This document shows positions 21,116 through 50,967 of a stretch of 64,000 nucleotides of DNA, piece by piece; the first letter of the stretch is position 1; every line of letters starts with the position of its first letter. Source of the DNA: Trichaptum fuscoviolaceum (Eukaryota > Basidiomycota > Agaricomycetes > Hymenochaetales > Trichaptaceae); contig CAJSYZ010000001.1 of NCBI GenBank assembly GCA_910574455.1, forward strand, positions 3,145,424 to 3,209,423, in the 5' to 3' direction. A program made the translations under genes and the position numbers. The notes under the pieces are model-generated. The model was not told the DNA's origin, ran no database searches, and worked only from the letters and a program-made list of their open reading frames with translations.

Positions 21116-21386
21116 AGGGTGTATGCAGTGAAGCGCAGGACAACCCAACTATAGGGGAGCTATGGCTCGACCCAAATAGGAAGGTAGTGGTAAGAGGTCA
21201 AGGAGTTGGTGATCTCCCTCAGGGTTAGTCAGTGATGGTTGAGTGCCGATTTTGTACCAGGGCGGTTCCTGTATCAAAAGAAGGTGTGGGGGGTCTGGGC
21301 TGTTAGCAAGAGAAGGGAAAATGGAATGAATCGCTGATATAGTGAGCGGCCAGCGTTCCACTGTAAGACACGTAGTGTGTCAATCA

Positions 21387-23198: not shown

Positions 23199-23467
23199 AG
23201 GGTGTATGCAGTGAAGCGCAGGACAACCCAACTATAGGGGAGCTATGGCTCGACCCAAATAGGAAGGTAGTGGTAAGAGGTCAAGGAGTTGGTGATCTCC
23301 CTCAGGGTTAGTCAGTGATGGTTGAGTGCCGATTTTGTACCAGGGCGGTTCCTGTATCAAAAGAAGGTGTGGGGGGTCTGGGCTGTTAGCAAGAGAAGGG
23401 AAAATGGAATGAATCGCTGATAGTGAGCGGCCAGCGTTCCACTGTAAGACACGTAGTGTGTCAATCA

Positions 23468-25279
23468 TTAGTCCTCATGCATGTGTGTGTCATGGGCGCT
23501 GTCATCAGCTGGTGCATTGGCGTACTTCTTCCGCTTGGGGCAGGCACTGGAGGTGGCCATGTGATCGCCGTTGCAGTTAGAGCACTTTGTGGGATGGGGG
23601 CAATCTTCAGTGGCAGGGACTGCATCCTGGGCGCAGTTTGCACACTTGGTGCGGTGTTGGGCTGTGGCATGCTTACCTGCGCAATGCGCACATGTGCGTT
23701 GGGCCTTGCAGCCCTTGGAGGTGTGTCCCAGGGCCTGGCACTTTGTGCATTGTGAAAATGCCGGGCGGACTGGGGGAACAGAGAGACAAAGTTTGTGGCC
23801 AAAGAGCCACACCCTGGGCGACTGAAGAAGCCGGGCGCGGATCTCTCCAGCTCTGTCAACAAAGAAGAATGCCACCGGGCAGAACTCAAGTTCACTGAGT
23901 CTGCCTGGTTGGCATGCGAATTGTGGTGGGACCACAAATTCCAGCCCCTTTAGGGCGGCATTTTGCATCAGCTCAGTGAGTAACTCGCCGGCTGTGTAAG
24001 GGACACTGTCCTTGACTGCTGTATCCCTGGTAGGAACCATGGAGATGCGCAGGTTAGAACGGGGTCGGACCCGGGAATAGGTGAGGGAGACCTGCTGGTC
24101 TGCAGCTTGTTCCCCTATGGTGCATATCTTTGCCATGTGCGCCGCTAGCGCGGCTGCATGACTGTCAAGGGTGGTGACCACTGGATTACCAGTGGGGGAG
24201 ATGGGCTTTGCCGCAAATGTGCACACAATGTTGCCTCTGTGGTTGAAAACCGCAGAGAGCACTGTGACATGCGAAGAAGTAGGAAGGGATTGGAAGTACT
24301 CACGAGCAGCCGCTGTTAGTGCAGCCCCTGATTTCCTCTGTGCTGGGGGAATGTACCGCCCCGGGGTTAGGACTAAGGTGGGGTCCTTAGAATACACCGT
24401 GGGGGGAGGAGGTGGGAGACGCGGCTTCTTTGGAGGCTTAGCTCTGGATGTGGTGTTTGGGGCCGGGGTTGCTGCCATCTGCGCATATGAGATGGGGGGA
24501 CTCTGGGTCACCGGGGGAGTGGCAGGTGTGCCGCTGGCTGGCTTGCCACCCGCAGGTGGGGCCGGTTGCGCTGTGGCACGCTGAGGGCGGGGTGGAGGTC
24601 GTTCTGAGATAGCCTGTACTTGTGTGGTGAGGGCGGTAACCTGGTTGGCAAGACGCGCAACAGTGTCTGTGAGCACTATCATTTCCTGGGGACCGACAGA
24701 TGGGGGTGGGCGCGTTGGTGAGTCAAATGGGGAGGGGACGGTGATAACAGGTGTAGGCCTAGCTGACGCTACACTCTCATTGTAACCAGTAGCGGCTGCG
24801 AGAATGAGTCGCTGGGCTTGGAGGTCACTCGCTTGTGCGCTCTGTGCAGCAGAGATAGCAATGTGGGCTGCGCTAACGATGGCACCCACTGCTTCCGCTG
24901 CTATCACAGCAATCTGGGATTCTGGCATTTCGCCTTCTTCAGGGGACTCATCTTCATGCCTCTGTTCAGCGAGCTGGATGATGTGGCCGATGTGGGGCAG
25001 CAGGTCTAGCATCTGTGTCAAGAATCTAGGACGAGCAGCATTGCGGGGCCGGCGTTGGGTGATGGGGGAGAGCACCTCTGATGTGCGCTTCCTGGGTGGG
25101 GGGGTGGCAGGCTTGTCGTCATCATCATCCTCATCATCTTCAGATGGTGCCGGACGATCATCCTTGGGCATGGGGCTGTCTTGTAGGACAGGAGTGTTGG
25201 GAGTGGCGCCAGACAGTGAGCCTGGCTTAGGAGTCTTTGGTGGTGGGCCTTTAGAGCCCGAGGCAGTGTTCTTGGACAT
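23468..25279 (-). CDS. LINE-B gag (ORF1), array unit 6, intact
   Basis: Full 603-residue gag with the RPPPSVG variant, followed by an ORF2 stub with a normal start. Confidence 0.9.
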   Translation of the reverse strand: MSKNTASGSKGPPPKTPKPGSLSGATPNTPVLQDSPMPKDDRPAPSEDDEDDDDDKPATPPPRKRTSEVLSPITQRRPRNAARPRFLTQMLDLLPHIGHIIQLAEQRHEDESPEEGEMPESQIAVIAAEAVGAIVSAAHIAISAAQSAQASDLQAQRLILAAATGYNESVASARPTPVITVPSPFDSPTRPPPSVGPQEMIVLTDTVARLANQVTALTTQVQAISERPPPRPQRATAQPAPPAGGKPASGTPATPPVTQSPPISYAQMAATPAPNTTSRAKPPKKPRLPPPPPTVYSKDPTLVLTPGRYIPPAQRKSGAALTAAAREYFQSLPTSSHVTVLSAVFNHRGNIVCTFAAKPISPTGNPVVTTLDSHAAALAAHMAKICTIGEQAADQQVSLTYSRVRPRSNLRISMVPTRDTAVKDSVPYTAGELLTELMQNAALKGLEFVVPPQFACQPGRLSELEFCPVAFFFVDRAGEIRARLLQSPRVWLFGHKLCLSVPPVRPAFSQCTKCQALGHTSKGCKAQRTCAHCAGKHATAQHRTKCANCAQDAVPATEDCPHPTKCSNCNGDHMATSSACPKRKKYANAPADDSAHDTHMHED

Positions 25280-25548
25280 AGGGTGTATGCAGTGAAGCGC
25301 AGGACAACCCAACTATAGGGGAGCTATGGCTCGACCCAAATAGGAAGGTAGTGGTAAGAGGTCAAGGAGTTGGTGATCTCCCTCAGGGTTAGTCAGTGAT
25401 GGTTGAGTGCCGATTTTGTACCAGGGCGGTTCCTGTATCAAAAGAAGGTGTGGGGGGTCTGGGCTGTTAGCAAGAGAAGGGAAAATGGAATGAATCGCTG
25501 ATAGTGAGCGGCCAGCGTTCCACTGTAAGATACGTAGTGTGTCAATCA

Positions 25549-27361
25549 TTAGTCCTCATGCATGTGTGTGTCATGGGCGCTGTCATCAGCTGGTGCATTG
25601 GCGTACTTCTTCCGCTTGGGGCAGGCACTGGAGGTGGCCATGTGATCACCGTTGCAGTTAGAGCACTTTGTGGGATGGGGGCAATCTTCAGTGGCAGGGA
25701 CTGCATCCTGGGCGCAGTTTGCACACTTGGTGCGGTGTTGGGCTGTGGCATGCTTACCTGCGCAATGCGCACATGTGCGTTGGGCCTTGCAGCCCTTGGA
25801 GGTGTGTCCCAGGGCCTGGCACTTTGTGCATTGTGAAAATGCCGGGCGGACTGGGGGAACAGAGAGACAAAGTTTGTGGCCAAAGAGCCACACCCTGGGC
25901 GACTGAAGAAGCCGGGCGCGGATCTCTCCAGCTCTGTCAACAAAGAAGAATGCCACCGGGCAGAACTCAAGTTCACTGAGTCTGCCTGGTTGGCATGCGA
26001 ATTGTGGTGGGACCACAAATTCCAGCCCCTTTAGGGCGGCATTTTGCATCAGCTCAGTGAGTAACTCGCCGGCTGTGTAAGGGACACTGTCCTTGACTGC
26101 TGTATCTCTGGTAGGAACCATGGAGATGCGCAGGTTAGAACGGGGTCGGACCCGGGAATAGGTGAGGGAGACCTGCTGGTCTGCAGCTTGTTCCCCTATG
26201 GTGCATATCTTTGCCATGTGCGCCGCTAGCGCGGCTGCATGACTGTCAAGGGTGGTGACCACTGGATTACCAGTGGGGAAGATGGGCTTTGCCGCAAATG
26301 TGCACACAATGTTGCCTCTGTGGTTGAAAACCGCAGAGAGCACTGTGACATGCGAAGAAGTAGGAAGGGATTGGAAGTACTCACGAGCAGCCGCTGTTAG
26401 TGCAGCCCCTGATTTCCTCTGTGCTGGGGGAATGTACCGCCCCGGGGTTAGGACTAAGGTGGGGTCCTTAGAATACACCGTGGGGGGAGGAGGTGGGAGA
26501 CGCGGCTTCTTTGGAGGCTTAGCTCTGGATGTGGTGTTTGGGGCCGGGGTTGCTGCCATCTGCGCATATGAGATGGGGGGACTCTGGGTCACCGGGGGAG
26601 TGGCAGGTGTGCCGCTGGCTGGCTTGCCACCCGCAGGTGGGGCCGGTTGCGCTGTGGCACGCTGAGGGGCGGGGTGGAGGTCGTTCTGAGATAGCCTGTA
26701 CTTGTGTGGTGAGGGCGGTAACCTGGTTGGCAAGACGCGCAACAGTGTCTGTGAGCACTATCATTTCCTGGGGACCGACAGATCGGGGTGGGCGCGTTGG
26801 TGAGTCAAATGGGGAGGGGACGGTGATAACAGGTGTAGGCCTAGCTGACGCTACACTCTCATTGTAACCAGTAGCGGCTGCGAGAATGAGTCGCTGGGCT
26901 TGGAGGTCACTCGCTTGTGCGCTCTGTGCAGCAGAGATAGCAATGTGGGCTGCGCTAACGATGGCACCCACTGCTTCCGCTGCTATCACAGCAATCTGGG
27001 ATTCTGGCATTTCGCCTTCTTCAGGGGACTCATCTTCATGCCTCTGTTCAGCGAGCTGGATGATGTGGCCGATGTGGGGCAGCAGGTCTAGCATCTGTGT
27101 CAAGAATCTAGGACGAGCAGCATTGCGGGGCCGGCGTTGGGTGATGGGGGAGAGCACCTCTGATGTGCGCTTCCTGGGTGGGGGGGTGGCAGGCTTGTCG
27201 TCATCATCATCCTCATCATCTTCAGATGGTGCCGGACGATCATCCTTGGGCATGGGGCTGTCTTGTAGGACAGGAGTGTTGGGAGTGGCGCCAGACAGTG
27301 AGCCTGGCTTAGGAGTCTTTGGTGGTGGGCCTTTAGAGCCCGAGGCAGTGTTCTTGGACAT
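25549..27361 (-). pseudogene. LINE-B gag, array unit 7, frameshifted
   Basis: One extra G near 26665 (GCTGAGGGGCGG against GCTGAGGGCGG) splits gag after about 235 codons. The downstream 390 codons stay open. The unit has private base changes, among them the codon giving KPIFPT instead of KPISPT. Confidence 0.88.
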
Positions 27362-27630
27362 AGGGTGTATGCAGTGAAGCGCAGGACAACCCAACTATAG
27401 GGGAGCTATGGCTCGACCCAAATAGGAAGGTAGTGGTAAGAGGTCAAGGAGTTGGTGATCTCCCTCAGGGTTAGTCAGTGATGGTTGAGTGCCGATTTTG
27501 TACCAGGGCGGTTCCTGTATCAAAAGAAGGTGTGGGGGGTCTGGGCTGTTAGCAAGAGAAGGGAAAATGGAATGAATCGCTGATAGTGAGCGGCCAGCGT
27601 TCCACTGTAAGATACGTAGTGTGTCAATCA

Positions 27631-28699
27631 TTAGTCCTCATGCATGTGTGTGTCATGGGCGCTGTCATCAGCTGGTGCATTGGCGTACTTCTTCCGCTTG
27701 GGGCAGGCACTGGAGGTGGCCATGTGATCGCCGTTGCAGTTAGAGCACTTTGTGGGATGGGGGCAATCTTCAGTGGCAGGGACTGCATCCTGGGCGCAGT
27801 TTGCACACTTGGTGCGGTGTTGGGCTGTGGCATGCTTACCTGCGCAATGCGCACATGTGCGTTGGGCCTTGCAGCCCTTGGAGGTGTGTCCCAGGGCCTG
27901 GCACTTTGTGCATTGTGAAAATGCCGGGCGGACTGGGGGAACAGAGAGACAAAGTTTGTGGCCAAAGAGCCACACCCTGGGCGACTGAAGAAGCCGGGCG
28001 CGGATCTCTCCAGCTCTGTCAACAAAGAAGAATGCCACCGGGCAGAACTCAAGTTCACTGAGTCTGCCTGGTTGGCATGCGAATTGTGGTGGGACCACAA
28101 ATTCCAGCCCCTTTAGGGCGGCATTTTGCATCAGCTCAGTGAGTAACTCGCCGGCTGTGTAAGGGACACTGTCCTTGACTGCTGTATCTCTGGTAGGAAC
28201 CATGGAGATGCGCAGGTTAGAACGGGGTCGGACCCGGGAATAGGTGAGGGAGACCTGCTGGTCTGCAGCTTGTTCCCCTATGGTGCATATCTTTGCCATG
28301 TGCGCCGCTAGCGCGGCTGCATGACTGTCAAGGGTGGTGACCACTGGATTACCAGTGGGGGAGATGGGCTTTGCCGCAAATGTGCACACAATGTTGCCTC
28401 TGTGGTTGAAAACCGCAGAGAGCACTGTGACATGCGAAGAAGTAGGAAGGGATTGGAAGTACTCACGAGCAGCCGCTGTTAGTGCAGCCCCTGATTTCCT
28501 CTGTGCTGGGGGAATGTACCGCCCCGGAGTTAGGACTAAGGTGGGGTCCTTAGAATACACCGTGGGGGGAGGGGATGGGAGGCGCGGCTTCTTTGGCGGC
28601 TTAGCTCTGGATGTGGTGTTTGGGGCCGGGGTTGCTGCCATCTGCGCGTATGCGATGGGGGGACTCTGGGTAACTGGGGGAGTGGCAGGTGTACCGCTG
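27631..28699 (-). pseudogene. LINE-B gag, partial outer unit 8
   Basis: Only the C-terminal ~355 residues remain. The segment 28527-28699 differs from the other units by about 6 percent (for example RLPSPPPT and the codons for IAYAQM), while the rest is nearly identical. The last piece therefore comes from another LINE-B lineage. It stops at GTACCGCTGG, next to a plus-strand LINE-A. Confidence 0.85.
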
Positions 28700-28702
28700 G
28701 GG

Positions 28703-30860
28703 CTGGTGCCTTTCTTTCATGACCGGGCGGGAGGCTGCTATCTCTTTTGATGGCACCACACTCCCTAGCGTCCACAAACCGGACTTTGGGACGCCTCAGG
28801 GCTCCCCTGTCTCACCCATTCTCTCCACTCTTTTTGCAGCTATTGCGATTCAGCGGTTCCGCCACCCTGACTGCGAGCTCCTAGCATACGTCGACGACCA
28901 CATGATTGCCATCACCGGCTCATCAGTCACCGCCAACTGCAGGAACTTAGTAGACGCTTATCACCACCTCAACTCGCTCTTCAACGACATCAATCTCAAC
29001 ATTGAGACCGCGAAGACCGAGCTCCTCCATTTCCACCCCCCTGGGCGTCGCCACAGATATCGCGGCTGGGACTCCCGGGGCGTCCAACTCGACGAGGACA
29101 CTCTCATTAAGCCCTCCATCCCACTTCGGTGGTTGGGGATCTGGTGGGATCCGGCCTTGTCTTTCAAACCCCATGTTGAGCGCATGCGCTCCAAGGGCCT
29201 CTCAACACTCGCCGCCATTCGCCTGCTAGCCAACACAGAGCGGGGCATGTCAGCCCTTAACCTTCGCCAGCTTTACTCAGCCTGCGTCAGAACAGTCCTC
29301 GCATGGGCTGCGCCGGTTTGGTACACTGGCACCCGCCAGAAGACCCTTGTGGCTCGTCTACAGGGCGTCCAGAACACCACTTGCAGGTGGATCCTTGGTG
29401 TTTACCGAGGCGCTTCACCGCTAAGCACCAATTATCTTTGCTCTATGCCCCCGTTTCAGTTTTATTTTAACTGTCTTAAAACTAATCATGCTCTTCGCCT
29501 TTGGCGCACTCCACATTCTGTAGGTAGACGTGCTATTCCTGCAGCACAAAAACCACGCCTGTACTCTTCTTCGCTTGCCGACCGTGTCCCGATTGCCCAA
29601 CAGGTCCCTGCATACACACACTCTCCCTGGGAGGATCCACTTGCCTTTGCTGGAGGACGCCTCAAATTTGCCATCCCTGCCGGTCCCGTTGACACTGACA
29701 CTCGCCAGGCGTTTGTCGCATCTGCCAACTCTCTGTGCACCACCACCTCCGTCCAGATCTTCACAGACGGCTCCAGACTCGAGCACAAGTCTGGCTCAGC
29801 AATTGTCGCTATGCACGGTCAACATCGCCTGGGCTTCAGACATTGCGCTTCCCCCAAAATCGCCACTGCCACTGACGCTGAGATCTTCTCCCTTGCGTCT
29901 GCTCCAGCTTGGGCTGCCTCTCACTTCGGCCGCCACCTCCTGGAAGTGGAGTCCATCGTCTTCATGTCAGATTCGCTAACCGCCCTTCGCCTCGTCCGCG
30001 ACTGGCCCTCAGCACCTGGCGCCCACTTACTACTCGCTTGGAAAGCAGGCATCACCAACCTGCTGGACATTCATCCCAATCTCAAAATCGAGTTTCACTG
30101 GTGCCCGGGCCACTCAGGCGTCCCAGGAAATGAATGGGCTGATGAAGAGGCAAAGAAAGCCACAGAATTGCCACCCTCATCTTCCCTTCCTTCGATATCC
30201 GCCCTCCGCGAGCAGAACACCCTCAACGCCCAGAAGCAATGGGAGGACCACCTCGCCCATGCCACTGCCTCCACTGCCGACAAGTACTTGGCAATCACAG
30301 GCCCACCAAAACGTCGTCCGCGCGCACTCATGGAGATGTCGGACACCTACCCCCGCGCTGAGATTTCAGCAGTTGCTCAAGTCCTCTGCTGCGCTGGCCC
30401 CTTCGGGGCGTACTGGATGCGCATGAGCCCAGAATATAGGCGCAGAAACGGCCTGATCACCTACTGTCGTTGGCACAATCACCCCCCTTGGCCTGCCCAG
30501 ACCGCCGCCCACATACTTGGTGGTTGCGAGACTTTCCGCCCTTGGATTGGTAAGGTCTGGCCCAAAGGCACCCCACTCCCAGCCCACCACACAGAGTGGG
30601 CAGATGAACCCCTTATCGACGTGATTCGCAAGTGGCTTAAGTTCACTAAGCATCTCGACCGCCCCACCCAGCGCACCTCAGCTGCCATCCACCTTGCATT
30701 TGCGATGATGGAGCTAGATGGCCTCCCAACCGACCAGGACATGGACCTGACAACCCTTTGTGTGTACATACAGTGCGCCCTTGAACCACGCACTCAGGAC
30801 ACGGACCCGGATCTTTATGATTTTAACGGTCACGTTTCAGACCCTCCTCTTGATCTCTGA
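28703..30860 (+). CDS. LINE-A ORF2 fragment: RT C-terminal half and RNase H
   Basis: Open for about 718 codons, from just upstream of RT motif B (TPQGSPVSPI) through YVDD and the motif E region (LGIWWDPALSFKPHV). RNase H follows (FTDGSRLEH, TDAEIF, MSDSLTALR, CPGHSGVPGNEWADEEA), then the C-terminal C-H-H-C group and stop. No start codon belongs to it. RT fingers and endonuclease are absent, so it is a dead fragment with a preserved frame. Confidence 0.88.
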
Positions 30861-31221
30861 TGCAACTTACTCTCTTTGTATGTATGAGGCACCAGCGATC
30901 CCAGACAGAACAGTGCTTTACCCAGGTTAACGCCCAGGTACTGCGCCCGGACGCGCCCTCTTTTCTAAACCTCGTTTGTGCCTGTAGTGTAGGTTCACCT
31001 GCACCTTGACATGGGCGCGGTGATATGTAAACCAATCTCTCCTCTTCCTTTCCCTTTCTTTAATAGGCGGTGCGCCCACTTAGCCGCCACCTTCGGTGGA
31101 GGGCACCTCCCGCCCAGTTTTGTAGTTTACCTCGATGACGGGCGCCTCCGTCGTAGATAGGTCATGTACTTAGCTATGCTGCAGGAATAATAAAGCCAAA
31201 AAAAAAAAAAAAAAAAAAAAA
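30861..31221 (+). other. LINE-A 3' UTR, hairpin and poly(A)
   Basis: A 337-bp 3' UTR ending AATAATAAAGCC followed by 24 A. A hairpin with a CTTCGG loop lies at about 31083-31103, about 95 nt before the poly(A). Here one stem base is altered (GTGGAGGG for GTGGCGGG). Confidence 0.8.
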
Positions 31222-31890
31222 GCTCGCAGTCAGGGTGTTGGAACCGCTTGATGGCAATAGCTGCAAAAAGAGTAGAGAGGATGGGTGAGACAGGTGAGCC
31301 CTGGGGCGTCCCAAAGTCCGGTTTGTGGACACTAGGGAGGGTGGTGCCATCAAAGGAAATGGCAGCCTGCCGACCAGTCATGAAGGAGAGGCACCAGTCC
31401 GCCATGTCTGACGAACAGCTCAACTCCAAGAGACGGCGGTGTAGGTGTTGTGGGTGCACCGAATCAAAGAAGCCCTGTATGTCCACCGCTAGGGCAGAAC
31501 ACACCAGGCCCTCCGACTGGGCTTTCTCCACGATCTGTAAAAGGTGCTGGGCAGCATCGTAGACAGAGTGTCCTTGACGCCCCCCATACTGGGTGGGTGG
31601 CAGCCAGTTCTTGGTGTTGGCCAAGTACTGGAGCCGGTTAGCAATAATCTTCTCAAGGAGTTTCCCTAAGGTCTCCTCAAGAGTAATGGGTCGGTATGAA
31701 CGCGGCGAGAATGGATCCTTCTTGTTTGGCTTCCTGAGCATTACTACCTTTGTTATCCGCCAGCACGCTGGGTGGTGGCCCAAGCGAAGACAGTCGTTGA
31801 ACAAAGTTAGCACCTCTTTAGCATAGGACGCTATCACCCACTTAAGGGGACGGTATCCAACGCCCGAGGGGCCAGGGGCCGACAAGTTGG
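31222..31890 (-). pseudogene. LINE-B3 ORF2, RT segment
   Basis: RT from the codons for SNLSAPGPSGVGYRPLKW through AVDIQGFFDSV and TPQGSPVSPI to CEL, where LINE-A2 interrupts it just before YVDD. The coding frame is open. Its upstream exon lies beyond the group I intron at 32776. A strain-specific-looking change gives LSCSSDMADW in place of LGCSPDMADW. Confidence 0.88.
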
Positions 31891-32775
31891 CAAGCTTCCC
31901 ATCTGTTGGGGTTTCGTGTAGCGGTACACCCCATGACGAATTTCGCGCTCACACATTGCAGTTCCACCCGCCCCTTGTAAGCCAGCATCACACAGTACTT
32001 CGGCAATGCTTTAGCCCACGCGGTTTAAGCTTCCCCACGCAGTAGAACTCTGGATGGTACTTCTCTTCCGTTACCGCTGCTCCGGTACGCACTCTCCCAC
32101 AGCGGCCACTCACAGCTAGGGCTGGTGCTGGGGCAATAGCAGGGAGCTAGGGCCCGGATCTGCACGCTGGGGGCCGCCCTCGTAAGGACAACCTCGCCTG
32201 CGGCGTCCCCGTCCACATCGCTCATCACTTGCACCACTCGATGGGCGCACCTGCCAAGGCGGGACCCTACGTCTTGGCCGCCTACTTGCCAGCCTTGACA
32301 TCGTTTCGGGCCACTTCACGGGAGGGGGCGTTCAGGCGCGTGAGGAACTACACCTCCATGCCAGGGGGCCAACCCCAGCACTTTTAACACGTTTAGCGCA
32401 CCCCGGTGGGTTTCCCCACTGCTGTAGACTATATCTTAAGCGCGGGCCTATGGGGGCCCACGCCAACCGCCACTTAGTCGTTGAACCTTCCCTATCCCTC
32501 AAAGTGGGGCTGGGCTTGGCTGCTGATTGGCCATTTCTCCCTCCGCAGGGATCATCCTGAGCATTTTTACCACCCTGGGTTGCAGGCCCAGTGTCATACT
32601 AATCCTCGTGCTATCATCATTCCCGTTCACTGACCAGGGGACTCTAAGCAGGGGGAAATAGCGACGGTAGCTGCAGGCTTTAGGCTATCCCAGCAATTCG
32701 ACGGTCTTGCCCATGTAGCTGGACTAGCCTGTTTGCGGAACAGACTTACCCCTGGTGTACGCCACTACACCATCG
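31891..32775 (-). ncRNA. Group I intron (IC1-like) inside LINE-B3 ORF2
   Basis: An 885-nt catalytic intron on the same strand as the LINE. P1: exon UACCU (32780-32776) pairs with guide GGGUA (32751-32747), with U-G at the splice site; GGUGUA/UACACC extends it. P3: GACCGUC (32706-32700) with GGCGGUU (32471-32465). P4: UUGCUGG with UCAGCAG, within P (32698-32688) and Q (32528-32514). R: GGTTCAACGACTAAGTG (32487-32471). P8: GCGUGGGCC/GGCCCGCGC. S: CTTAAGATATAGTC (32440-32427); its UAGUC pairs with GACUA as P7. P9: GUGGG-GAAA-CCCAC (32419-32406). The 160 nt between P and Q leave room for P5abc. The last base is G and the 5' exon ends in U, as group I requires. About 515 nt follow P9; I recognise no homing endonuclease there. 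Confidence 0.93.
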
Positions 32776-32936
32776 AGGTACCGGCCAGTGCGTCCATAAG
32801 CTCTTTCATGAGTATTGGAGGCGCACTGGGAGAAGGAGGAGGCAGCGGGCCTTGGCCCGCTGCTGAAAGTGGTGGAGGAGGGGGGAAATATGTTGAGTGA
32901 AACAACTCACCTTTCTCCTGCTCTGTACTGGTGAAG
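32776..32936 (-). pseudogene. LINE-B3 ORF2, exon upstream of the group I intron
   Basis: Encodes the stretch from the spacer before RT to GTS, ending at the intron after GGTACCT. With the intron removed, the GGT ACC T/CC codons read Gly-Thr-Ser, the same residues as GGC ACT TCC in the other LINE-B copies. The upstream end is cut by the chromodomain element (TSD TGAAG at 32932-32936). Confidence 0.88.
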
Positions 32937-33746
32937 TGTCACGACGACACCTAAGACCCTACGAACAAACATTCCCGCGCCATCACTAAACCCGACATCA
33001 ATCCCGACATCTGGTCCCGGATCCCGCAACCCGGACCCCAAGCCAAACATTTCCAAATACACGACAAACATCACGAACACGTTCCACGACCACGCCCTAC
33101 GAACACGCCTTACGAACACGCCTTACGAACACGCCCTACGGACATTCTGACAGTACCACGCCCCAGACTACCATTCATTCCCACTTCATTCCCGTAAAAC
33201 CCCGAAATCTATCTATTATCCTTTATCACCATTTTCAAATCACTCTGATCACATTCCCGTTTCCCTTTGTTCTAACATACATTCCCGGTTCCTCGTGTAA
33301 GCTACACGCCCCACGATTATTCTCCGAATCCTGCGTGTCACTACACGACTCACCTCCACGCCCCGAAAACACATCTTACTCCCCATTTCTTATCTCAGAC
33401 TCTTACGCGTATATAAACTTGTAGAAACTCGTCATGTATCTCTCGACTCGAATATCATAAGTCTTTAGGCTACTTTACGAGCTAGGCTCTCGAGATCCAT
33501 CCTTGCTTCACTCTATGATCTTACTCTCGTCGTTATACACTCTTCTCACTCTCAGACTCTAAATTCCCGAAAACCCGACTAGGATCTCGCGTAGAATCCC
33601 GGATCACTGATTGCGGGAACTTCAACCCGGATCCCGACTACTTGGTCTCTTGCTATTCGCCTTCGCGTTTCCTTCGCCTTTCCGTTCCCGCTCGGCTTTC
33701 TCAACTCGCGACCACCCTTAGGCAAGGCTTGGGTCCGGGCCTGACA
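32937..33746 (+). repeat. 5' LTR of the chromovirus (810 bp)
   Basis: TGTCACGACG...CCTGACA. It differs from 49617-50426 at about six positions, for example GACGACACC against GACAACACC and TCCTGCG against TCCCGCG. Four CCTACGAACACG-like repeats lie near 33090-33140. Confidence 0.95.
33410..33455 (+). promoter_or_regulatory. Chromovirus promoter: TATA box and predicted RNA 5' end
   Basis: TATATAAA at 33410. GACTCGAATAT lies exactly 35 bases on, at 33445-33455, the same spacing as in LTR-N although the bases between differ. The shared stretch continues as CATAAGTCTTT. Confidence 0.72.
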
Positions 33747-33760
33747 GTATATTCGAGTCC
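33747..33760 (+). other. Self-complementary primer-binding site of the chromovirus
   Basis: GTATATTCGAGTCC directly after the LTR. The 11-nt core at 33749-33759 is the exact reverse complement of 33445-33455. Two bases separate it from the LTR end, a normal distance for a primer-binding site. Confidence 0.77.
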
Positions 33761-33778
33761 TTACTCAGAGACCGAAGT

Positions 33779-36700
33779 ATGTCCTATACGTTTGCCGAAA
33801 ACACTCGCTTCTCCCCGGAGCACCCCTTCTCTGCGGAGGCGGATGCTGCCAATGCCTCTGTAGCAGGCCTCTTTGAATCCCCAGATACACCAGTCAATCA
33901 GTCTTCGAACAACCGAGTTCGTATGGGCAGATCACAACCTACGACTCCTATTCTGCCAGCTTTCCGGGATACGACTCCCAGGACCCCTGACATCAGACAA
34001 CCTTTGATTCCCCCCAGTACCCCTCAGCCATCTCGCTTTCAACCCCGTAATCTCGAAACCCCACCATTCCCCGCACAAGCTAGCCGAAATGTCACCTCTC
34101 GACGATCGCAAAGCAACCTCGATGCTATCCGATCCATTCTGCCCTCAGGACACATTGAAGAACCACCAGCCAGACAATCGATCTTTTCGCTACGGCCAAC
34201 ACAGAATCAAAACCCCCTGGTCAGCTCTACACCGAGAGCTCGCCAGCCTAGTCCTCTTCAGAATTTCTTCTCCGACCCGTATTTGCAACGCACTGAACCT
34301 TATAACCCCAATTCCCCCCAGACAGTTCCGCGGCAAACGTTCAGCCCCCAAGCGAATTCGACCACTTTTCCCGAACGCATTCCCGAACGCGCCCCTGGGG
34401 AAACCCATTTCCACCACGACTACCAACGCGCTTACGAAAGCCCATTCCCCGGACGTGCTCAAGACTACACGAATCCCGGTCGAGATTACGAAACTACCCA
34501 ACAGCGGTATGAACGCGCTCCCGAGAGCCCATTCCCCGGTTACACTCCCACGCGCGGAGTTCCCGGACAGAATCCCGAAAACATGTACGAAAGACAAGTT
34601 CCCGGTTGCACTACAAACAGCCCGTTTCCCAATCGTAATCGTGAAAATCCCATCCAGCATCCCGAACGATTACCCACTAACCCTTGGCCTACGGGATACT
34701 CGACATACACCGAGCGTACAACACCTCAGACCACACCGGTCGAGACACATCACCCTAGAGTTACGCGACATTCTTCATACGACCCCCATGCTCGTTTTCC
34801 AACGGGTTCATCTGTTAACACTCACCTACAACCCATCCCGGAAGAAACACGTTCAGCGACCTATGACGCCAAACCCGCGGAAATCCCACTGCCAAGTACA
34901 CACAGTAGCGCAACCCACATTACGTCGGTACGGGACGACCATAGTGCACCGTCTCACATCCCGAATCGCCCTCCCTCCACTACACCTTCAGAGTTTCGAG
35001 AGAGATTTCCAGAACACACCAACACCCATGGGTACTTCCCTATTCCACCACCCCAGGCGCCCTTCTACTCCGTTATCAACCCTTCCTTCTTCGAACCCAC
35101 TATCCAAACACCACCTCTCCACGCATTTATTGAATCAGTAACGGACGAAGAAGACATACGAAATCGACGGAATCAACCATACGAAGTTACCCCTCCCCAT
35201 TCCTCTCCAACGTCCTATTACTCCCCTCAACCAATTCCCGACTACATTCCCGAAGTAACAAACCCGCACAATCAACCCTCCTCACCTATCAGTCACGATC
35301 CACGACGCGACCCGGCACCGCATCTCCCTGCCAGGATGGCTAGACAACGGAACACAACGTTCGACTCAGAACAACCACCACAAATGCCGCAACTACAGGG
35401 ACGAGAAACCTATCCACCTAATTCGCCCAGCAACCACTATTCCGAAAATGACCACCCAAACAGGAGGCAACCCGGTAGAGGATTCCCGGGAGGTGGAATT
35501 CCAGATAGGGGATTCCCCAACCGAAACCCTAGTGGCGGATTCCCAGGCAGAAATCCCGGTGGTGGGTTCCCAGGCGGAAATCCCGGAGGTGGATTCCCAG
35601 GCGGAAATCCCGGTGGTGGATTCCCGGACGGAAATCCCGGTGATAGATTCCCGAAAGACGGCAATTTCTATAGAGGATCCCAGGGAAACGAATATCCCGA
35701 CGATAGATTCCCGGGCAGAGGAAATCCTGGAGGAGGAGGATATTACGGAGGGCCACCAGGAGGAGGACCACCAGGAGGAGGACCACCAGGAGGAGGACCA
35801 CCAGGCGGTAGAACCCCAGGAGGCGGACCACCAGGAGGAGGCCCACCAGGAAGAGGACCACCAGGACGACGACCATTCTTTCCAGGAGGAGGAGGAGGAG
35901 GACCACCAGACGACGACCCAAACACCACCCACTACTACGATGAGAACGAACCCCATCCTAATGCCACCTTCGACCCTTTTCGCCAACCACAACGCCGCAA
36001 AGTCCCAAAATACACAGCACCAGAAAAATTCTCGGGACTCGCGATGGGCAACTCAGGAGCCGTCAAACTGCGCACTTTTCTCGCCGCATGCTACCAAATA
36101 TTCGACCTAGACCCCGAATCCTTTCCCGACGACCGAACGCAAATAGCCTACGCAGCTTCCAACTTCACGGGAGACGCTCAAGAATGGTGGACAACAGTCC
36201 TCACGGAACACGACTATAACCCCATGCGCGCTGATTGGTCCCTCTTCGTTCAAGGTCTAAACGGCATGTTTGGAGACCCGTACATCAGTTTCTCCGCCGC
36301 GCGCCTCATTAAACAACTTATCATGCCAGAAAACGGGCGCGTCAGCAAATACATCCTTCAATTCATGAAGTACGCGTACGACACGGGTTGGAACAACTCC
36401 GCGTTATGCACTCAATTCTACGACAATATCGCAGAACGCATCAAAGACCAATTTACCACTCATGGGCGACCAGATCGATTCGACCAACTACGACTCAAAG
36501 CCATCGAATACGATCATCGCTACTGGGAACGCGAGTTCGAAAAACGCTTTACAAGGCGTATTACCCCTCGCACCGACAACCCACGATCCCGACCAACGAA
36601 TTCCACCAACCCGAATACCAGTACGACTCCCAACAAATCCCGCGAAAACCCCGACACGACAAAGAAATCAATAATAGGTCCAGACGGACGACTCACCAAC

Positions 36701-36931
36701 GAGGAACGAACCCGATGTCGAGAAGAGAATCTCTGCCTTAACTGCGGCAAACCAGGCCACATTGCATGCGCTTGTCCCAGCAACACCCGCCAAGGCCGAC
36801 TCACCTTCTCCTATCAAGACACGCCAGATCCCGAAATCGACCAAGAAGAAGACCAACCACGCGATGACACTGAAAACGAAGAAGAAGCACCAGACGAAGA
36901 CGAAGAAGACACCACCCCGGAAAACGAGTAG
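33779..36931 (+). CDS. Chromovirus Gag, 1050 residues with a long disordered N-terminus
   Basis: Structural protein that packages the element RNA in virus-like particles. The first ~730 residues are low-complexity, rich in Pro, Ser, Thr and Asn; ~560-640 carries repeats of the type GGFPGGNPG and ~655-700 runs of PGGGP. The gag domain proper follows ([27 protein letters not shown], ~740-920). One CCHC knuckle, [14 protein letters not shown], lies near 985 and an acidic tail ends the protein. It is about twice the usual Ty3-type Gag length because of the N-terminal extension. The ATG lies 32 bases inside the LTR; the frame is intact. Confidence 0.92.
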
Positions 36932-38803
36932 ACGATCCGGACGAACCAGCGCAGAACCAGGATTGTCAATCCCCAACCTGCGCAACCACCTATCCCCTCA
37001 TAACTTATGTCCGCGCCACCTGCCCCGCTAATGCTTTCTTTCTGGATCTATCTATTCCCGACATCTCTGCCACGCCGATACGCGCTCTTCTCGACTCCGG
37101 GGCGAGCGATAACTTCATCGATCCCGCTATCATTCCCGAAACCACACCACTCAACCCTATACCCAATCCCATCACGCTACAACTATTCGACGGTAGCATC
37201 GCGACAACAGGATCCATCACTCACAACACCACTCTCTCCATCCAACTCCCAACAGGCGAAAACCACGAAGTCGATTTTCTCCTCACACCTCTTCACCACT
37301 CAGCACCCATCGTCCTGGGATTCCCCTGGCTCCAAGAACACAATCCCCACATCGATTGGCGCAAACTTCGCATGAAAATCCCGACCATCTCGAGTAAGAT
37401 ACCCAAAGAAGACAAACTAATCCTTGATTTCATACAGGCCCGCCGCGATGATCCCGACTACAACGCAGCTGCTCTCAATCCTGAACCAGTCTGCGGCGCT
37501 CCAACAGCGCCAACCTCCCCTTCCCCACACGGGATTCAACTCCCACCCGACTCGACAAAACCCGAGTTTGTCAAACCCGACATCAATTTAATCAACGCAG
37601 CCGCGTTTCAACTTTTACGGGACAAAGGGGCCAAATGCTTCAAAATGACAACTCGCGAAATTTTCCCGGAAGCATTTCCCGATCCCGAACCACCTACCCA
37701 GTCCCCAGCACACGGAATGACCGCATCAACCAAACCAATTCGCATGTCACCGGAAGAACGAGAAACCTTTGAGTGCATCGTCCCACCAGATTATCATGAC
37801 TACGCTGACGTGTTCTCAGAAGGCGAAGCAGATCGCATTCCACCACACCGCCCCTACGACCACACCATCGACCTCGAACCTCAAACAAATCCCCCGTACG
37901 GGCCGATCTACTCCCTTTCTGAAACCGAGCTCAAGGCACTTCGCGAATACCTGGACGACAATCTTCGTAAAGGCTTCATACGTCCTTCAAACTCCCCAGC
38001 CGGAGCACCCATACTATTCGCTAAGAAAAAAGACGGGTCACTCCGCCTCTGCGTCGACTACCGAGGACTCAACAAAATCACCCGAAAAAAACCGATACCC
38101 TCTACCCCTCATCAACGACCTCCTCGACCGCATGAAGAAAGCCAAAATCTTCACCAAGATCGACCTACGCGCAGGGTACAACAATGTCCGCATCGCTGCG
38201 GGACACGAATGGAAGACAGCATTCCGAACGCGATACGGCTCCTTCGAATACCTCGTCATGCCATTCGGGATGACCAACTCCCCGGCCACATTCCAACATT
38301 TTATGAATGACATTTTCAAGGACATGACTGACGACTTCGTTGTCATTTATCTAGACGATATCCTGATCTTCAGTAAGGACCCCGCCAAACACAAAGAACA
38401 TGTTCGCCTCGTTCTGGAACGGCTACGCGCCCACAACCTGCACGCAAAAACGGAGAAATGTCTATTTCACACAACCTCCGTCGAATACCTTGGTTTCATC
38501 GTTTCCCCCGACGGCGTATCCATGGACCCCGCCAAAACGCAAGTCATCGAATCATGGCCCATTCCTCGAAACGTGCGGGAAGTTCAATCCTTCCTTGGCT
38601 TTGCCAATTTCTATCGACGATTCATCGACAAATACTCCAACATCGTCAAACCACTCACTTCCCTCACCCGCAAAGACATCCCCTTCAAGTGGTCAGACGA
38701 AGCCCAGATAGCATTCGACAAACTCAAACGCGCGTTCCAGACCGCACCCGTGCTCGCCCACTTCAATCCCGACGACCCCTCAGTCGTAGAAACCGACGCC
38801 TCA
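36874..38803 (+). pseudogene. Chromovirus Pol, first part: protease and RT, one frameshift
   Basis: The frame opens at 36874, overlaps the gag end by 58 nt in the -1 frame and has no good start codon, so ribosomal frameshifting is likely; no textbook slippery heptamer is visible (nearest GGAAAAC just before the gag stop). The aspartic protease has [12 protein letters not shown] and [10 protein letters not shown] begins at [20 protein letters not shown], then [28 protein letters not shown] and YLDD (38348-38359). Seven A at 38085-38091, where six would keep the frame, shift it between [10 protein letters not shown] and the next block. The RNase H start ETDAS is cut by LINE-B. Confidence 0.88.
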
Positions 38804-38894
38804 ACTCCTTGACCTCTTACCACTACCTTCCTATTTGGGTCGAGCCATAGCTCCCCTATAGTTGGGTTGTCCTGCGCTTCACTGCATACACCCT

Positions 38895-40704
38895 ATGTCC
38901 AAGAACACTGCCTCGGGCTCTAAAGGCCCACCACCAAAGACTCCTAAGCCAGGCTCACTGTCTGGCGCCACTCCCAACACTCCTGTCCTACAAGACAGCC
39001 CCATGCCCAAGGATGATCGTCCGGCACCATCTGAAGATGATGAGGATGATGATGACGACAAGCCTGCCACCCCCCCACCCAGGAAGCGCACATCAGAGGT
39101 GCTCTCCCCCATCACCCAACGCCGGCCCCGCAATGCTGCTCGTCCTAGATTCTTGACACAGATGCTAGACCTGCTGCCCCACATCGGCCACATCATCCAG
39201 CTCGCTGAACAGAGGCATGAAGATGAGTCCCCTGAAGAAGGCGAAATGCCAGAATCCCAGATTGCTGTGATAGCAGCGGAAGCAGTGGGTGCCATCGTTA
39301 GCGCAGCCCACATTGCTATCTCTGCTGCACAGAGCGCACAAGCGAGTGACCTCCAAGCCCAGCGACTCATTCTCGCAGCCGCTACTGGTTACAATGAGAG
39401 TGTAGCGTCAGCTAGGCCTACACCTGTTATCACCGTCCCCTCCCCATTTGACTCACCAACGCGCCCACCCCCATCTGTCGGTCCCCAGGAAATGATAGTG
39501 CTCACAGACACTGTTGCGCGTCTTGCCAACCAGGTTACCGCCCTCACCACACAAGTACAGGCTATCTCAGAACGACCTCCACCCCGCCCTCAGCGTGCCA
39601 CAGCGCAACCGGCCCCACCTGCGGGTGGCAAGCCAGCCAGCGGCACACCTGCCACTCCCCCGGTGACCCAGAGTCCCCCCATCTCATATGCGCAGATGGC
39701 AGCAACCCCGGCCCCAAACACCACATCCAGAGCTAAGCCTCCAAAGAAGCCGCGTCTCCCACCTCCTCCCCCCACGGTGTATTCTAAGGACCCCACCTTA
39801 GTCCTAACCCCGGGGCGGTACATTCCCCCAGCACAGAGGAAATCAGGGGCTGCACTAACAGCGGCTGCTCGTGAGTACTTCCAATCCCTTCCTACTTCTT
39901 CGCATGTCACAGTGCTCTCTGCGGTTTTCAACCACAGAGGCAACATTGTGTGCACATTTGCGGCAAAGCCCATCTCCCCCACGTAATCCAGTGGTCACCA
40001 CCCTTGACAGTCATGCAGCCGCGCTAGCGGCGCACATGGCAAAGATATGCACCATAGGGGAACAAGCTGCAGACCAGCAGGTCTCCCTCACCTATTCCCG
40101 GGTCCGACCCCGTTCTAACCTGCGCATCTCCATGGTTCCTACCAGGGATACAGCAGTCAAGGACAGTGTCCCTTACACAGCCGGTGAGTTACTCACTGAG
40201 CTGATGCAAAATGCCGCCCTAAAGGGGCTGGAATTTGTGGTCCCACCACAATTCACATGCCAACCAGGCAGACTCAGTGAACTTGAGTTCTGCCCGGTGA
40301 CATTCTCCTTTGTTGACAGAGCTGGAGAGATCCGCGCCCGGCTTCTTCAGTCGCCCAGGGTGTGGCTCTTTGGCCACAAACTTCATCTTTCTGTTCCCCC
40401 AGTCCGCCCGGCATTTTCACAATGCACTAAGTGCCAGGCCCTGGGACACACCTCCAAGGGCTGCAAGGCCCAACGCACATGTGCGCACTGCGCAGGTAAG
40501 CATGCCACAGCCCAACACCGCACCAAGTGTGCAAACTGCGCCCAGGATGCAGTCCCTGCCACTGAAGATTGCCCCCATCCCACAAAGTGCTCTAACTGCA
40601 ATGGCGATCACATGGCCACCTCCAGTGCCTGCCCCAAGCGGAAGAAGTACGCCAATGCACCAGCTGACGACAGCGCCCACGACACTCACATGCACGAGGA
40701 CTAA
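38895..40704 (+). pseudogene. LINE-B gag with 2-bp deletion
   Basis: Same 603-codon gag as the array units, but TG is missing after 39982 (CCACGTAAT against CCACTGGTAAT), giving a stop after about 363 residues. The rest is open in another frame and keeps the knuckles CTKCQALGHTSKGC and CSNCNGDHMATSSAC. The TAA stop at 40702-40704 overlaps the ORF2 ATG at 40704. It reads VTFSF and KLHLS, like U0. Confidence 0.9.
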
Positions 40705-43700
40705 TGATTGACATACTACGTGTCTTACAGTGGAACGCTGGCCGCTCACTATCAGCGATTCATTCCATTTTCCCTTCTCTTGCTAACAGTCCAGACCCCC
40801 CACACCTTCTTTTGATACAGGAACCGCCCTGGTACAAAATCGGCACCCAACCATCACTTACTAACCCTGAGGGAGATGACGTCTTCAACGTTCCATCAAT
40901 CCCAGGGTATGTCCCATGCCTACCACCAGCCACCCGTCCTCGAGTGGTGACATATGTCTCTCGGACCATTCCACCATCCTCATGGTCTATTGTTGGCGCC
41001 GCCTCTCATGGCACTGACATCCTGACTATTGAGGTCCGTTCCACCCACACCGTCCGCCTCTGCAACTACTATGGTCAGCAGGCACCGGACAGGGCGGAGT
41101 ACAACCCCAGATACCCAGGTGAGTCGTTTCTATTTAGTCTCACTCCGGCAATGGCCGCCTCCCTCACAATTGCCGGTGACTTCAATCGCCGGCACCGTTT
41201 GTGGTCCGAACTCGCCTGCACTACTGCAGAGTCAAACAAGGCGCAACCCCTTGATGACTTCTTCAGAGAGCATGGCCATGAACCTGCCCATCACCCAGAC
41301 GTTGATACTCGTCCGGGCAAAGATGGGCTGCACTGTCCCATTGACATGGTCTGGGCAGCGCCAAACATCCCTCCTAGCAAGTGATGGATACATTCACTAG
41401 CTCGCCATCTCCCCTTTCTGATCATACCATTCTCAAATGGGCGCTGCCAGTGGGACCCTTTGTCCACCCGCCGCGTCCCCCCAAGCTGACCCCTGAGGAT
41501 AGAGAGGCTTGGTGTGCAGTTGCCTTCCCCTTGTTGCAGGACGCGTTTGCGCTCCCTGCTACTGACATTGCTTCACTAGATGCAAAAGCCGAGGCCATTC
41601 AGAGCGCCCTGGTAGCGGCTATGCAGTCTATGACCAAGCCCCACAAGCACTCAAAACAGCAGTACCCTGGTGGTCAGCTAAGTGCTCAGCGTCCCTCACG
41701 GCTATCAAAGAAGCCCCCACTGCGCGTCTGCATGCAGCTGCCAAACGTGCCTTCAAGGCAACTACCAGGGCAGCGCGCCGCCTCTTCTATTCAGAGCAGG
41801 TGCAGGAGGCTAACTCCACCAACATCTGGAACTGGGCCAAACGTGGCCTGGGTGTCCGCCCCACTCCAGTACCCTCATTGCGCAAGGCAGATGGCACCTT
41901 CACCAGTACAGAGCGGGAGAAAGGTGAGTTGTTCCACTCAACATATTTTCCCCCTCCTCCACCACTTTCAGCAGCGGGCCAAGGCCCGCTGCCTCCTCCT
42001 TCCCCCAGTGCGCCTCCAATACTCATGAAAGAGCTTATGGACGCACTGGCCGGCACTTCCAACTTGTCGGCCCCTGGCCCCTCGGGCGTTGGATACCGTC
42101 CCCTTAAGTGGGTGATAGCGTCCTATGCTAAAGAGGTGCTAACTTTGTTCAACGACTGTCTTCGCTTGGGCCACCACCCAGCGTGCTGGCGGATAACAAA
42201 GGTAGTAATGCTCAGGAAGCCAAACAAGAAGGATCCATTCTCGCCACGTTCATACCGACCCATTACCCTTGAGGAGACCTTAGGGAAACTCCTTGAGAAG
42301 ATCATTGCTAACCGGCTCCAGTACTTGGCCAACACCAAGAACTGGCTGCCACCCACCCAGTATGGGGGGCGTCAAGGACACTCTGTCTATGACGCTGCCC
42401 AGCACCTTTTACAGATCGTGGAGAAAGCCCAGTCTGAGGGCCTGGTGTGTTCTGCCCTAGCGGTGGACATACAGGGTTTCTTTGATTCGGTGCACCCACA
42501 ACACCTACACCGCCGTCTCTTGGAGTTGGGCTGTTCACCAGACATGGCGGACTGGTGCCTCTCCTTCATGACTGGTCGGCAGGCTGCCATTTCCTTCGAT
42601 GGCACCACCCTCCCTAGTGTCCACAAACCGGACCTTGGGACGCCTCAGGGCTCACCTGTCTCACCCATCCTCTCTACCCTTTTTGCAGCTATTGCCATCA
42701 AGCGGTTCCAACACCCTGACTGCGAGCTCCTTGCATACGTCGACGACCACTTGATTGTCATTTCTGGCACATCCGTCACCGCCAACTGCAGGAACTTAGC
42801 AGACGCCTACCACCATCTCAACTCTCTCTTTAACGACATCGGCCTCAAAATCGAAACAGCTAAGACAGAGCTGATCCACTTCCACCCTCCCGGACGATCC
42901 ACGGGCTACAACGGCTGGGACACCAAGGGCGTCCGACTCGACCCAGACACACTCATCAAACCCTCCATCCCTCTGCGATGGTTGGGTATCTGGTGGGATC
43001 CCACTCTCTCCTTCAAGCCCCATGTTGAGCGCATGCGCTCCAAGGGCCTCTCAACACTTGCTGCCATTCGCCTCCTTGCCAACACAGAACGCGGCATGTC
43101 AGCCCTTAACCTTCGCCAGCTTTACTCAGCCTGCGTTAGAACAGTCCTTGCCTGGGCTGCGCCGGTCTGGTACACTGGCATCCGCCAGAAGACCCTTGTG
43201 GCTCGTCTACAGGGTGTTCAAAACACCGCTTGCAGGTGGATCCTTGGTGTATACCGAGGCGCTTCACCGCTAAGCACCAATTTCTTATGTTCTATGCCTC
43301 CGTTTCAATTTTACTTTAACTATCTTAAAACTAACCATGCTCTTCGCCTTTGGCGCACCCCACATTCAGTAGGTAGACGTGCTATTCCTGCAGCACAAAA
43401 ACCCCGCCTGTACTCTTCTTCGCTCTCCGACCGCGTTCCCAGCGTCCAACAGGTCCCTGCGTACACACACCACCCCTGGGAGGACCCACTTGCTTTTGCT
43501 GAAGGGCGACTCTCATTTGCCATCCCTGCTGGCCAGGTAGACAGTGACATCCGCAAGTCATTTGTTGCGTCTGCCAACACCATCTGCACCAACTCATCCG
43601 TCCAAATCTTTACTGACGGCTCTCGCCTTGAGCATGGAGCGGGCTCTGCAATTGTAGCCATGCGTGGCACCACTCGTTTAGCATCCCGGCGCCTTGCCTC

Positions 43701-44709
43701 ACCCAAAATCTCAACCGCCACAGATGCTGAGATCTTCTCTCTCTCATCTGCACCAGCATGGGCGGCCCTTCAGTTAGAAGGCCATCTTCTGGATGTCGAC
43801 ACCATCATCTTCTTGTCAGATTCGCTCACCGCCCTTCGCCTGCTCCGCGATTGGCCTTCGGCCCCTGGCGCCCACCTACTCCAGTCATGGAAAGCGGGTA
43901 TCACTAACCTGCTCAACCTCCATCCCACCCTCAAAATCATGTTTCACTGGTGCCCTGGCCACTCAGGCGTCCCAGGCAACGAATGGGCAGATGATGAAGC
44001 AAAGAAGGCAACCGAACTGCCACCCTCACGCTCACTGCCATCGATTTCCGCCCTCCGCGAGCAGAACACTCTTACTGCGCAGAAACAGTGGGAGGACCAC
44101 CTCGCCCATGCAATCGCCTCTACTGCAGACAAGTACCTTGCAATTAATGGCACCCCCTCACGTCGTCCTCGTGCACTCATGCACATGTCCGACAGCCACC
44201 CACGCTCTGAGATCTCAGCAGTAGCTCAGGTACTCTGCTGTGCTGGCCCCTTTGGGGCGTACTGGATGCGCATGAGCGCTGAATACCGGCACAAACATGG
44301 TCTGATCACCTACTGCCGTTGGCACAACCACCCCCCCTGGCCAGCCCAAACCGCCGCTCACATACTAGGTGGGTGCGAAACATTCCGCCCCTGGATTGTG
44401 AAGGTTTGGCCAGACGACGCCCCATTACCAGCTCACCACACAGAGTGGGCAGATGAACCCCTCATCGATGTGATTCGCAAGTGGCTCAAAGCCACTGGCC
44501 ATCTCACCAGACCCTCAGAGCGCACCTCAGCTGCTATCCGCCTTGCATTTGCGATGATGGAGCTAGATGGCCTCCCAACCGACCAGGACATGGACCTGAC
44601 AACCCTTCGTGTGTACGTTAGGCGAGCCCTTGGACCCAGGACCCAGGACGCGGACCCGGATCTTTATGATTTTGATGGTCAACTTCCAGACTTACCTCAC
44701 GATCTCTGA
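40704..44709 (+). pseudogene. LINE-B ORF2 with two single-base deletions
   Basis: Endonuclease from LQWNAGRS through IQEP, GDFNRRH and SDH; RT with YRPITLEETLGKLLEKI, AVDIQGFFDSV, TPQGSPVSPI and YVDD; RNase H with FTDGSRLEHGAG, TDAEIF, LSDSLTALR and CPGHSGVPGNEWADDEA; C-terminal CRWHNHPPWP...HILGGC. One G is missing at 41375/41376 and one A of five at 41653-41656, compared with U0. The length, 4006 nt plus two, matches 1335 residues. From 41800 on, 969 codons are open and include the whole RT and RNase H, but the copy is dead as a unit. Confidence 0.92.

Positions 44710-44986: not shown

Positions 44987-45018
<32 letters not shown>
44710..45018 (+). other. LINE-B 3' UTR with UUCG hairpin and poly(A)
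   Basis: The hairpin CCGCCGC-CTTCGG-GCGGCGG lies at 44880-44898. LINE-A has CCGCCAC-CTTCGG-GTGGCGG at the same place: an A-U pair replaced by G-C, so the pairing is kept. In other LINEs such 3' structures are read by the RT; that role here is inference. Confidence 0.8.
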
Positions 45019-48808: not shown

Positions 48809-48844
<36 letters not shown>

Positions 48845-50426: not shown

Positions 50427-50898
50427 TGAAGGTGCCATCTGCCTTGCGCAGCGAGGGTACTGGAGTAGGGCGGATACCCAGGCCACGCTTGGCCCAGTTC
50501 CAGATGTTGGTGGAGTTAGCCTCCTGCACCTGCTCTGAATAGAAGAGGCGGCGCGCTGCCCTGGTAGTTGCCTTAAAGGCACGTTTGGCAGCTGCACGCA
50601 AACGCGCAGTGGGGGCTTCTTTGATAGCCGCGAGGGACGCTGAGCACTTAGCTGACCACCAGGGTACTGCTGTTTTTGAGTGCTTGTGGGGCTTGGTCAT
50701 AGACTGCATAGCCGCTACCAGGGCGCTCTGAATGGCCTCGGCTTTTGCATCTAGTGAAGCAATGTCAGTAGCAGGGAGTGCAAACGCGTCCTGCAACAAT
50801 GGGAAGGCAACTGCACACCAAGCCTCTCTGTCCTCAGGGGTCAGCTTGGGGGGGCGCGGTGGGTGGACAAAGGGTCCCACTGGCAGCGCCCATTTGAG
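50427..50898 (-). pseudogene. LINE-B3 ORF2, region between endonuclease and RT
   Basis: Continues LINE-B3 upstream of the chromovirus insertion: codons for LKWALPVGPF, LTPEDREAW and WAKRGLGIRPTPVPSLRKADGTF. It stops at AGCGCCCATTTGAG (50885-50898), the target duplication of LINE-A3. Confidence 0.88.
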
Positions 50899-50967
50899 AC
50901 ATCCTTCTTGACCTCTAACCACTACCTTCCCGATTTGGTTGAGCCCCCCCGCTCCCATCGGTTAGGC

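Follow-up and report, generated by a model that had tools for sequence, protein, structure and literature searches.

The window (the whole stretch of 64 kb analyzed here, C1:3145424-3209423 in a genome of 59.1 Mb assembled in 12 contigs) contains a copy of a LINE retrotransposon, LINE-B, the ORF2 of which is interrupted in its reverse transcriptase (RT) gene by a segment confirmed, at the level of sequence comparison, to be a group I intron. The features of the locus, the parts of the intron and the copies of it found elsewhere in the genome are listed in Table 1.

Table 1. Features of the intron-bearing LINE, structural elements of the intron and intron copies elsewhere in the genome (window positions, unless a contig is given).
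Feature	Position	Strand	Comments
Group I intron	31891..32775	-	885 nt; first base 32775, last base (G) 31891; Rfam and empty LINE copies
LINE-B ORF2 exon 5′ of the intron	32776..32936	-	161 bases, ends ...GGTACCT
LINE-B ORF2 exon 3′ of the intron	31222..31890	-	Open frame with the RT domain; starts CCAACTTG
Further 5′ part of the same LINE-B copy	50427..50899	-	Separated by the Ty3-type LTR element
Ty3-type LTR element	32937-50426		Splits the LINE-B copy; LTRs 99.1% identical, target duplication TGAAG
LINE-A copy	28700..31221	+	5′-truncated, with poly-A, abuts the 3′ exon
Internal guide sequence AGGGGUAA	32746..32753	-	Predicted P1 partner of exon UACCU, with U.G at the splice site; fold of exon and intron
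P3 5′ strand	32699..32708	-	Rfam alignment and fold
P4 5′ strand (P block)	32689..32698	-	Rfam alignment and fold
Long P5 extension, P5abc-like	32529..32688	-	Insertion in the Rfam alignment; fold
Hairpin and A-rich stretch within the P5 extension	32575-32591 (hairpin); 32556-32574 (A-rich)	-	Fold
P5/P4 3′ strand (Q block)	32515..32528	-	Rfam alignment and fold
P7 5′ strand and P3 3′ strand (R block)	32466..32485	-	Rfam alignment and fold
P8 hairpin	32440..32463	-	Rfam alignment and fold
P7 3′ strand (S block, AAGAUAUAGUCUAC)	32424..32437	-	Rfam alignment and fold
P9 hairpin with GAAA loop	32406..32419	-	Rfam alignment and fold
Long 3′ domain of the intron	31891..32405	-	Without homing-endonuclease match
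Intron copy	C10:2284503-2285277		Intron bases 117-885; 98.7% identical to the window intron over 769 bases
Intron copy	C1:3044307-3044714		Intron bases 1-404; 98.8% identical over 402 bases
Intron piece	C1:3073190-3073318		Intron bases 399-527; 99.2% identical over 129 bases
Intron fragment	C6:2207176-2207362		Intron bases 335-521; 98.9% identical over 187 bases

The RT piece of the host element has 150 matches in the genome. The intact, intron-free copy L051 encodes an ORF1 of 614 aa and an ORF2 of 1335 aa and carries endonuclease, RT and RNase H domains; the window copy carries the RT domain, detected in the 3′ exon (Pfam RVT_1, E 1.8e-22). The 5′ exon differs from L051 by six substitutions, all of which are transitions, and the 3′ exon by seven. 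An unnamed protein, with 72% identity, is the best relative of ORF2, and the nearest named relatives are eight proteins of Coniferiporia weirii (Hymenochaetales), the LINEs of which are host elements of the same type, with ORF2 sequences 56-62% identical. These relatives point to a basidiomycete host. LINE copies carry a poly-A tail, while the 3′ end of the LINE-B copy itself is hidden in the window. The Ty3-type element splitting LINE-B includes an integrase with a chromodomain (45.1-46.9 kb) and a full LINE copy nested inside it at about 38.8-45.0 kb.

The covariance-model search suggested in the first-pass annotation gave a match to the Rfam family RF00028 (Intron_gpI) at 32768-32404 on the minus strand, with a score of 95.4 bits (E 2.6e-23), above the gathering score of 50 bits. 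The match spans the full length of the model (positions 1-253 of 253) and is the only Rfam match above threshold in the window. Together with the RT domain in the 3′ exon, it bears out the earlier claim that a group I intron lies on the sense strand of a LINE RT gene. The ends of the intron were obtained by comparison with intron-free LINE copies, which in BLAST searches align up to 32775 and resume at 31890 with an overlap of one base; this overlap was resolved by the U preceding and the G ending the intron, as is usual in group I introns. The ends originally proposed thus proved right to the base, and the U and the G were seen at junctions fixed by the empty copies. The junctions read GGTACCT/CGATGG...GAAGCTTG/CCAACTTG (a slash marks each junction) and the empty form reads GGCACTTCCAACTTG; in a longer context, the empty site is GGCCGGCACTT/CCAACTTG and the filled one GGCCGGTACCT/CGATGG...GGGAAGCTTG/CCAACTTG. 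At this site, which we call site 1, no LINE bases have been gained or lost, and there is no target-site duplication around the intron. The GT...AG ends of spliceosomal introns are absent, since at the exact boundary the intron starts with CGATGG and ends with GCTTG. The ORF2 of the empty copy L051 continues as ...LAGTSNLSAPG across the site and the window exons keep the same frames, while the window ORF2, if left unspliced, runs into a stop codon formed by intron bases 9-11 (...LAGTSMV*). As a whole, the intron has an ordinary folding energy (z -0.77, 20 shuffles), and it is therefore the covariance model and the comparisons that carry the evidence.

The core strands P3, P4, P6, P7, P8 and P9, the last with a GAAA loop, occur in order in the RF00028 alignment, and their places were taken from the fold; the core of P3, P4, P7, P8 and P9 described in the first-pass annotation was therefore recovered by the Rfam alignment. 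Table 1 gives the strands their P, Q, R and S block names, and the extension of P5 is presumably of the P5abc kind, as in Tetrahymena. Based on this likeness, the intron probably belongs to subgroup IC1. No homing endonuclease, of the His-Cys or any other type, was matched in the six frames of the whole intron when Pfam was searched at E values up to 1, and the lone match obtained in these frames (PKS_DE, E 0.082) is at chance level.

In the genome, RF00028 gave three matches among the best 26 scored of 1,934 first-look candidates, all of them above the cut-off. Besides the window copy, these are C1:3044318, with 97.2 bits, and C10:2285022, with 60.7 bits. When the intron together with the adjoining ends of its exons was used as query, 17 places were found, 12 of which hold the 3′ exon only and five of which contain intron sequence. 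The two pieces on C1 were read as one copy because both meet LTR-like ends (TGTCAG...TGACA) and TGGGG is present on both sides; an insertion of about 28 kb would later have divided this copy in two. The fragment on C6 (L055:4177-4363, 187 bases) directly adjoins an inverted LINE at its 5′ end and is antisense to it; the fragment has no junction that could tell its site and has the look of filler DNA inserted where a LINE begins.

The intron copies with a readable junction all lie in LINEs and none of them in an rRNA gene. Site 1 is filled at one place and empty at 89, of which 88 match exactly and the remaining one has a single mismatch. At site 2 (C1:3044307), the LINE 5′ end CATCCTTCTTGACCT is followed by intron base 1. 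This 15-mer occurs 49 times in the genome, continuing as the LINE sequence CTWACCACTACC in 48 cases and entering the intron in one (matched by position, by eye); the site is 15 bases into the LINE, before the likely start of ORF1 at base 68, and its assignment rests on these 15 LINE bases, this copy having no intron 3′ end. At site 3 (C10:2284503-2285277), which has no intron 5′ end, intron base 885 is followed by LINE sequence (CTCAACAC; CTCAACACTCGC of ORF2), and this LINE can be traced, in pieces interrupted by other insertions, to a poly-A tail. The empty form of this site, GCTCCAAGGGCCT/CTCAACACT, was found 90 times when up to two mismatches were allowed; the LINE-A copy of the window carries the site in its empty form (29200/29201). 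Sites 1 and 3 are both located in ORF2, and the three sites belong to different parts of the LINE. Only site 1 retains both junctions, sites 2 and 3 retaining one each. Near-identical introns in the LINE sense orientation are thus present at all three LINE sites, with a group I core and exact junctions at site 1. The search for further intron-bearing LINE copies proposed in the first-pass annotation therefore yielded two more LINE sites, while site 1 itself was found filled only once. With a single filled copy found per site, the multiplication of an intron-bearing LINE as such is only a possibility. No target-site duplication of an intron-bearing LINE was demonstrable in these copies, all three being interrupted by later insertions.

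A target-site duplication beside the site 3 copy was considered and rejected, since the matching flank is a repeat of 1055 bases which is 97.9% identical at both places (L054:5279-6333 and L061:1497-2551). The two repeat copies flank the site 3 LINE on both sides in the same orientation, and one of them ends exactly at intron base 117. Because the loss of the 5′ part of the C10 copy lies at the end of this repeat, it is no proof of LINE 5′ truncation.

A chimeric assembly join, in which rDNA and LINE reads would have been fused, is extremely improbable, since the exons differ between the three loci that carry the intron and each locus has substitutions of its own; in one copy, moreover, an LTR element flanked on either side by TGGGG splits the intron. 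The point in favor of a join is that rDNA was not found in the assembly (no hits with an LSU pattern, an SSU pattern or the 5.8S family), so that reads of an rDNA intron could have been misplaced.

Folding of the exon and intron located the guide sequence of the P1 reported in the first-pass annotation, predicting a pairing between the exon end UACCU and AGGGGUA at 32746-32753. In the register used, U-1 is placed opposite the second G, and the numbers of contiguous pairs, which include one or two bases 3′ of the junction, are predicted to be five at the empty site 1, six at site 1 in its window form, six at site 2, and six at site 3, where the 5′ exon was taken from the empty copies because the filled copy has lost its own. 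In the empty sites, only four of the guide pairs fall within the 5′ exon. With a one-base slide and four registers allowed, and with the register and pairing criterion chosen after the sites had been seen, 39 out of 200,000 random triples of sites from two LINE copies reached this pairing; in a single register, about 2% of the LINE positions reach six pairs and 5% reach five. Pairing with the guide at each of the three sites is a prediction. The reading of the guide as one made for an rRNA site labelled L2449 was dropped: the label is probably wrong and the stretch lies elsewhere in the LSU. The LSU search pattern came from the same stretch as the exon labelled L2449, and the eight guide pairs of this exon were not used.

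The exon changes nearest to the junction in the window copy as compared with L051 (C to T at -5, T to C at -2) keep the codons and add or strengthen predicted P1 pairs. Since C at -2 is also present in many empty copies, only the change at -5 is private to the window copy (T at -5 in 0 of 89); a separate tally of 53 site 1 sequences, which includes duplicates from overlapping loci, serves for exon variants only. A tie between the two changes and the strengthening of the predicted P1 is only suggestive.

The same two changes could also be read as co-conversion, as would be expected if the intron had moved as DNA, a homing endonuclease having cut the LINE and repair having copied the intron in. 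Homing is described as an efficient, known route for group I introns in a 2013 review (PMC3679873). We nevertheless regard it as a very unlikely origin of these copies: the six intron frames have no endonuclease match, all three copies are in the LINE sense orientation, and the three sites have few bases in common, whereas homing endonucleases recognize 15-20 bp according to the same review (PMC3679873). The exact ends of the intron, the sense orientation at three sites out of three, the short 5′ exon matched to the guide and the lack of an endonuclease match fit reverse splicing into RNA instead.

The fact that near-identical copies were found at two other LINE sites suggests that the intron likely spreads via insertion into LINE RNA. 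We consider it likely that guide-directed reverse splicing into LINE RNA, followed by reverse transcription of this RNA into the chromosome by the LINE machinery, explains the intron. Free intron RNA, originating either from an rDNA copy outside the assembly or from another LINE copy, would pair through the AGGGGUA guide with (A/G)CYU/C in LINE RNA. The terminal G of the intron would then attack at U/C, and the intron would become integrated into the LINE RNA. The LINE RT would copy the intron-bearing RNA by target-primed reverse transcription, and the transcripts of the new copy would splice, restoring ORF2. Reverse splicing and retrotransposition had already been put forward in the first-pass annotation, and find support in the exact junctions without duplication, the two further LINE sites in sense orientation and the predicted guide pairing; the return of the intron to the genome through LINE RNA is what we infer from these data. 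As regards the donor, the differences between the intron copies are compatible with either an rDNA intron or another LINE copy.

It is also conceivable that the intron is a dead relic, unable to splice, which entered LINEs by rare accidents, intron RNA or DNA having been carried in by template switching or by end joining. Every copy found sits in a broken element, the internal fragment of 187 bases on C6 at a LINE 5′ end looks like filler, and self-splicing in vitro fails for some of the nuclear group I introns, as reported in the 2013 review (PMC3679873). The window copy nonetheless fits the full core model, and if end joining had been at work there would be no reason to expect that the intron ends are exact at three sites, that the copies lie in sense orientation or that the guide pairs with the sites, so that we hold this possibility to be unlikely.

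Returning to reverse splicing into LINE RNA, it seems somewhat more probable than not that the intron has left the rDNA and uses LINE RNA as its host and the LINE RT as its vehicle, that it has gone through this cycle three times or more in this genome, at three sites, and that the LINE is still restored by splicing.

In the 2013 review (PMC3679873), all known nuclear group I introns are stated to interrupt rRNA genes, and experimental evidence for the complete reverse-splicing pathway is said to be lacking; a paper published in 2021 (PMC8395846) says much the same about the confinement to rDNA and about integration after reverse splicing. Both agree with the first-pass annotation, in which nuclear group I introns were described as coming from rRNA genes. 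Among the titles and abstract beginnings listed in our searches of open-licence papers, none described a group I intron situated in a LINE, a retrotransposon or a nuclear protein gene, and a search for an exon string of the intron site returned no paper. Given the restriction to rDNA in these papers and the lack of a LINE report among those searched, we regard the segment as a true group I intron whose nuclear host is of a new kind and likely also a new vehicle.

The intron resembles the nuclear rDNA group I introns in its core helices, the U before it and the G at its end, its guide, and its long P5 and 3′ domains. It differs from them in its location, as it lies in the protein-coding gene of a LINE, whereas those introns occur in rRNA genes only, according to the two publications (PMC3679873, PMC8395846). 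Among rDNA sites, 4-8 shared bases of the 5′ exon were taken as the mark of reverse splicing by Bhattacharya et al. (2005; PMC1299323); here too, related introns occupy unlike sites that share only such a short stretch. The same paper reports that virtually all the rDNA introns of Pezizomycotina are devoid of an endonuclease, as is the case of the window intron. The difference from the introns described there is that the recipient in our case is LINE RNA, the own RT of which would supply both reverse transcription and integration. The proposed route is similar to the retrohoming of mobile group II introns in that a pairing-guided intron RNA returns through reverse transcription; unlike those introns, the present one has a group I core and no intron-encoded RT and would have to borrow that of the LINE. 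Selfish DNA related to introns has also been described from a nuclear protein gene of a fungus, namely the mitochondrial homing endonuclease gene in the nuclear genome of Ustilago maydis, which is presented (PMC7593156) as a single, inactive insert of mitochondrial origin truncating a gene, whereas the intron analyzed here is inserted exactly, occurs at three sites and has no endonuclease match.

If the proposed route is correct, the complete reverse-splicing pathway would here, for the first time in nature, be readable from DNA. The recipient LINE encodes the very RT that the pathway needs, the three filled sites have 89, 48 and 90 empty reference sites, respectively, and the guide is predicted to fit the landing places. 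Reverse splicing can thereby be put to the test with donor and target RNAs that are defined, and a nuclear transposon gene joins the places where a ribozyme intron can live.

Some other characteristics of the window are worth mentioning. The segment at 53415-56269, located between two pieces of one LINE insertion, has a GC content of 39.5% as compared with about 55% in the region, and contains no tRNA and no Rfam match. The stretch from 11416 to 28700 consists of a head-to-tail array of seven full units of ~2,081 bases with a partial unit at each end. Each unit represents reference bases 403-2481, a 5′ portion of the LINE that includes ORF1, and the units are 97-99.7% identical to the reference copy. 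Close copies of the LINE form one cluster per contig on all 12 contigs, a distribution which looks like centromeric clustering.
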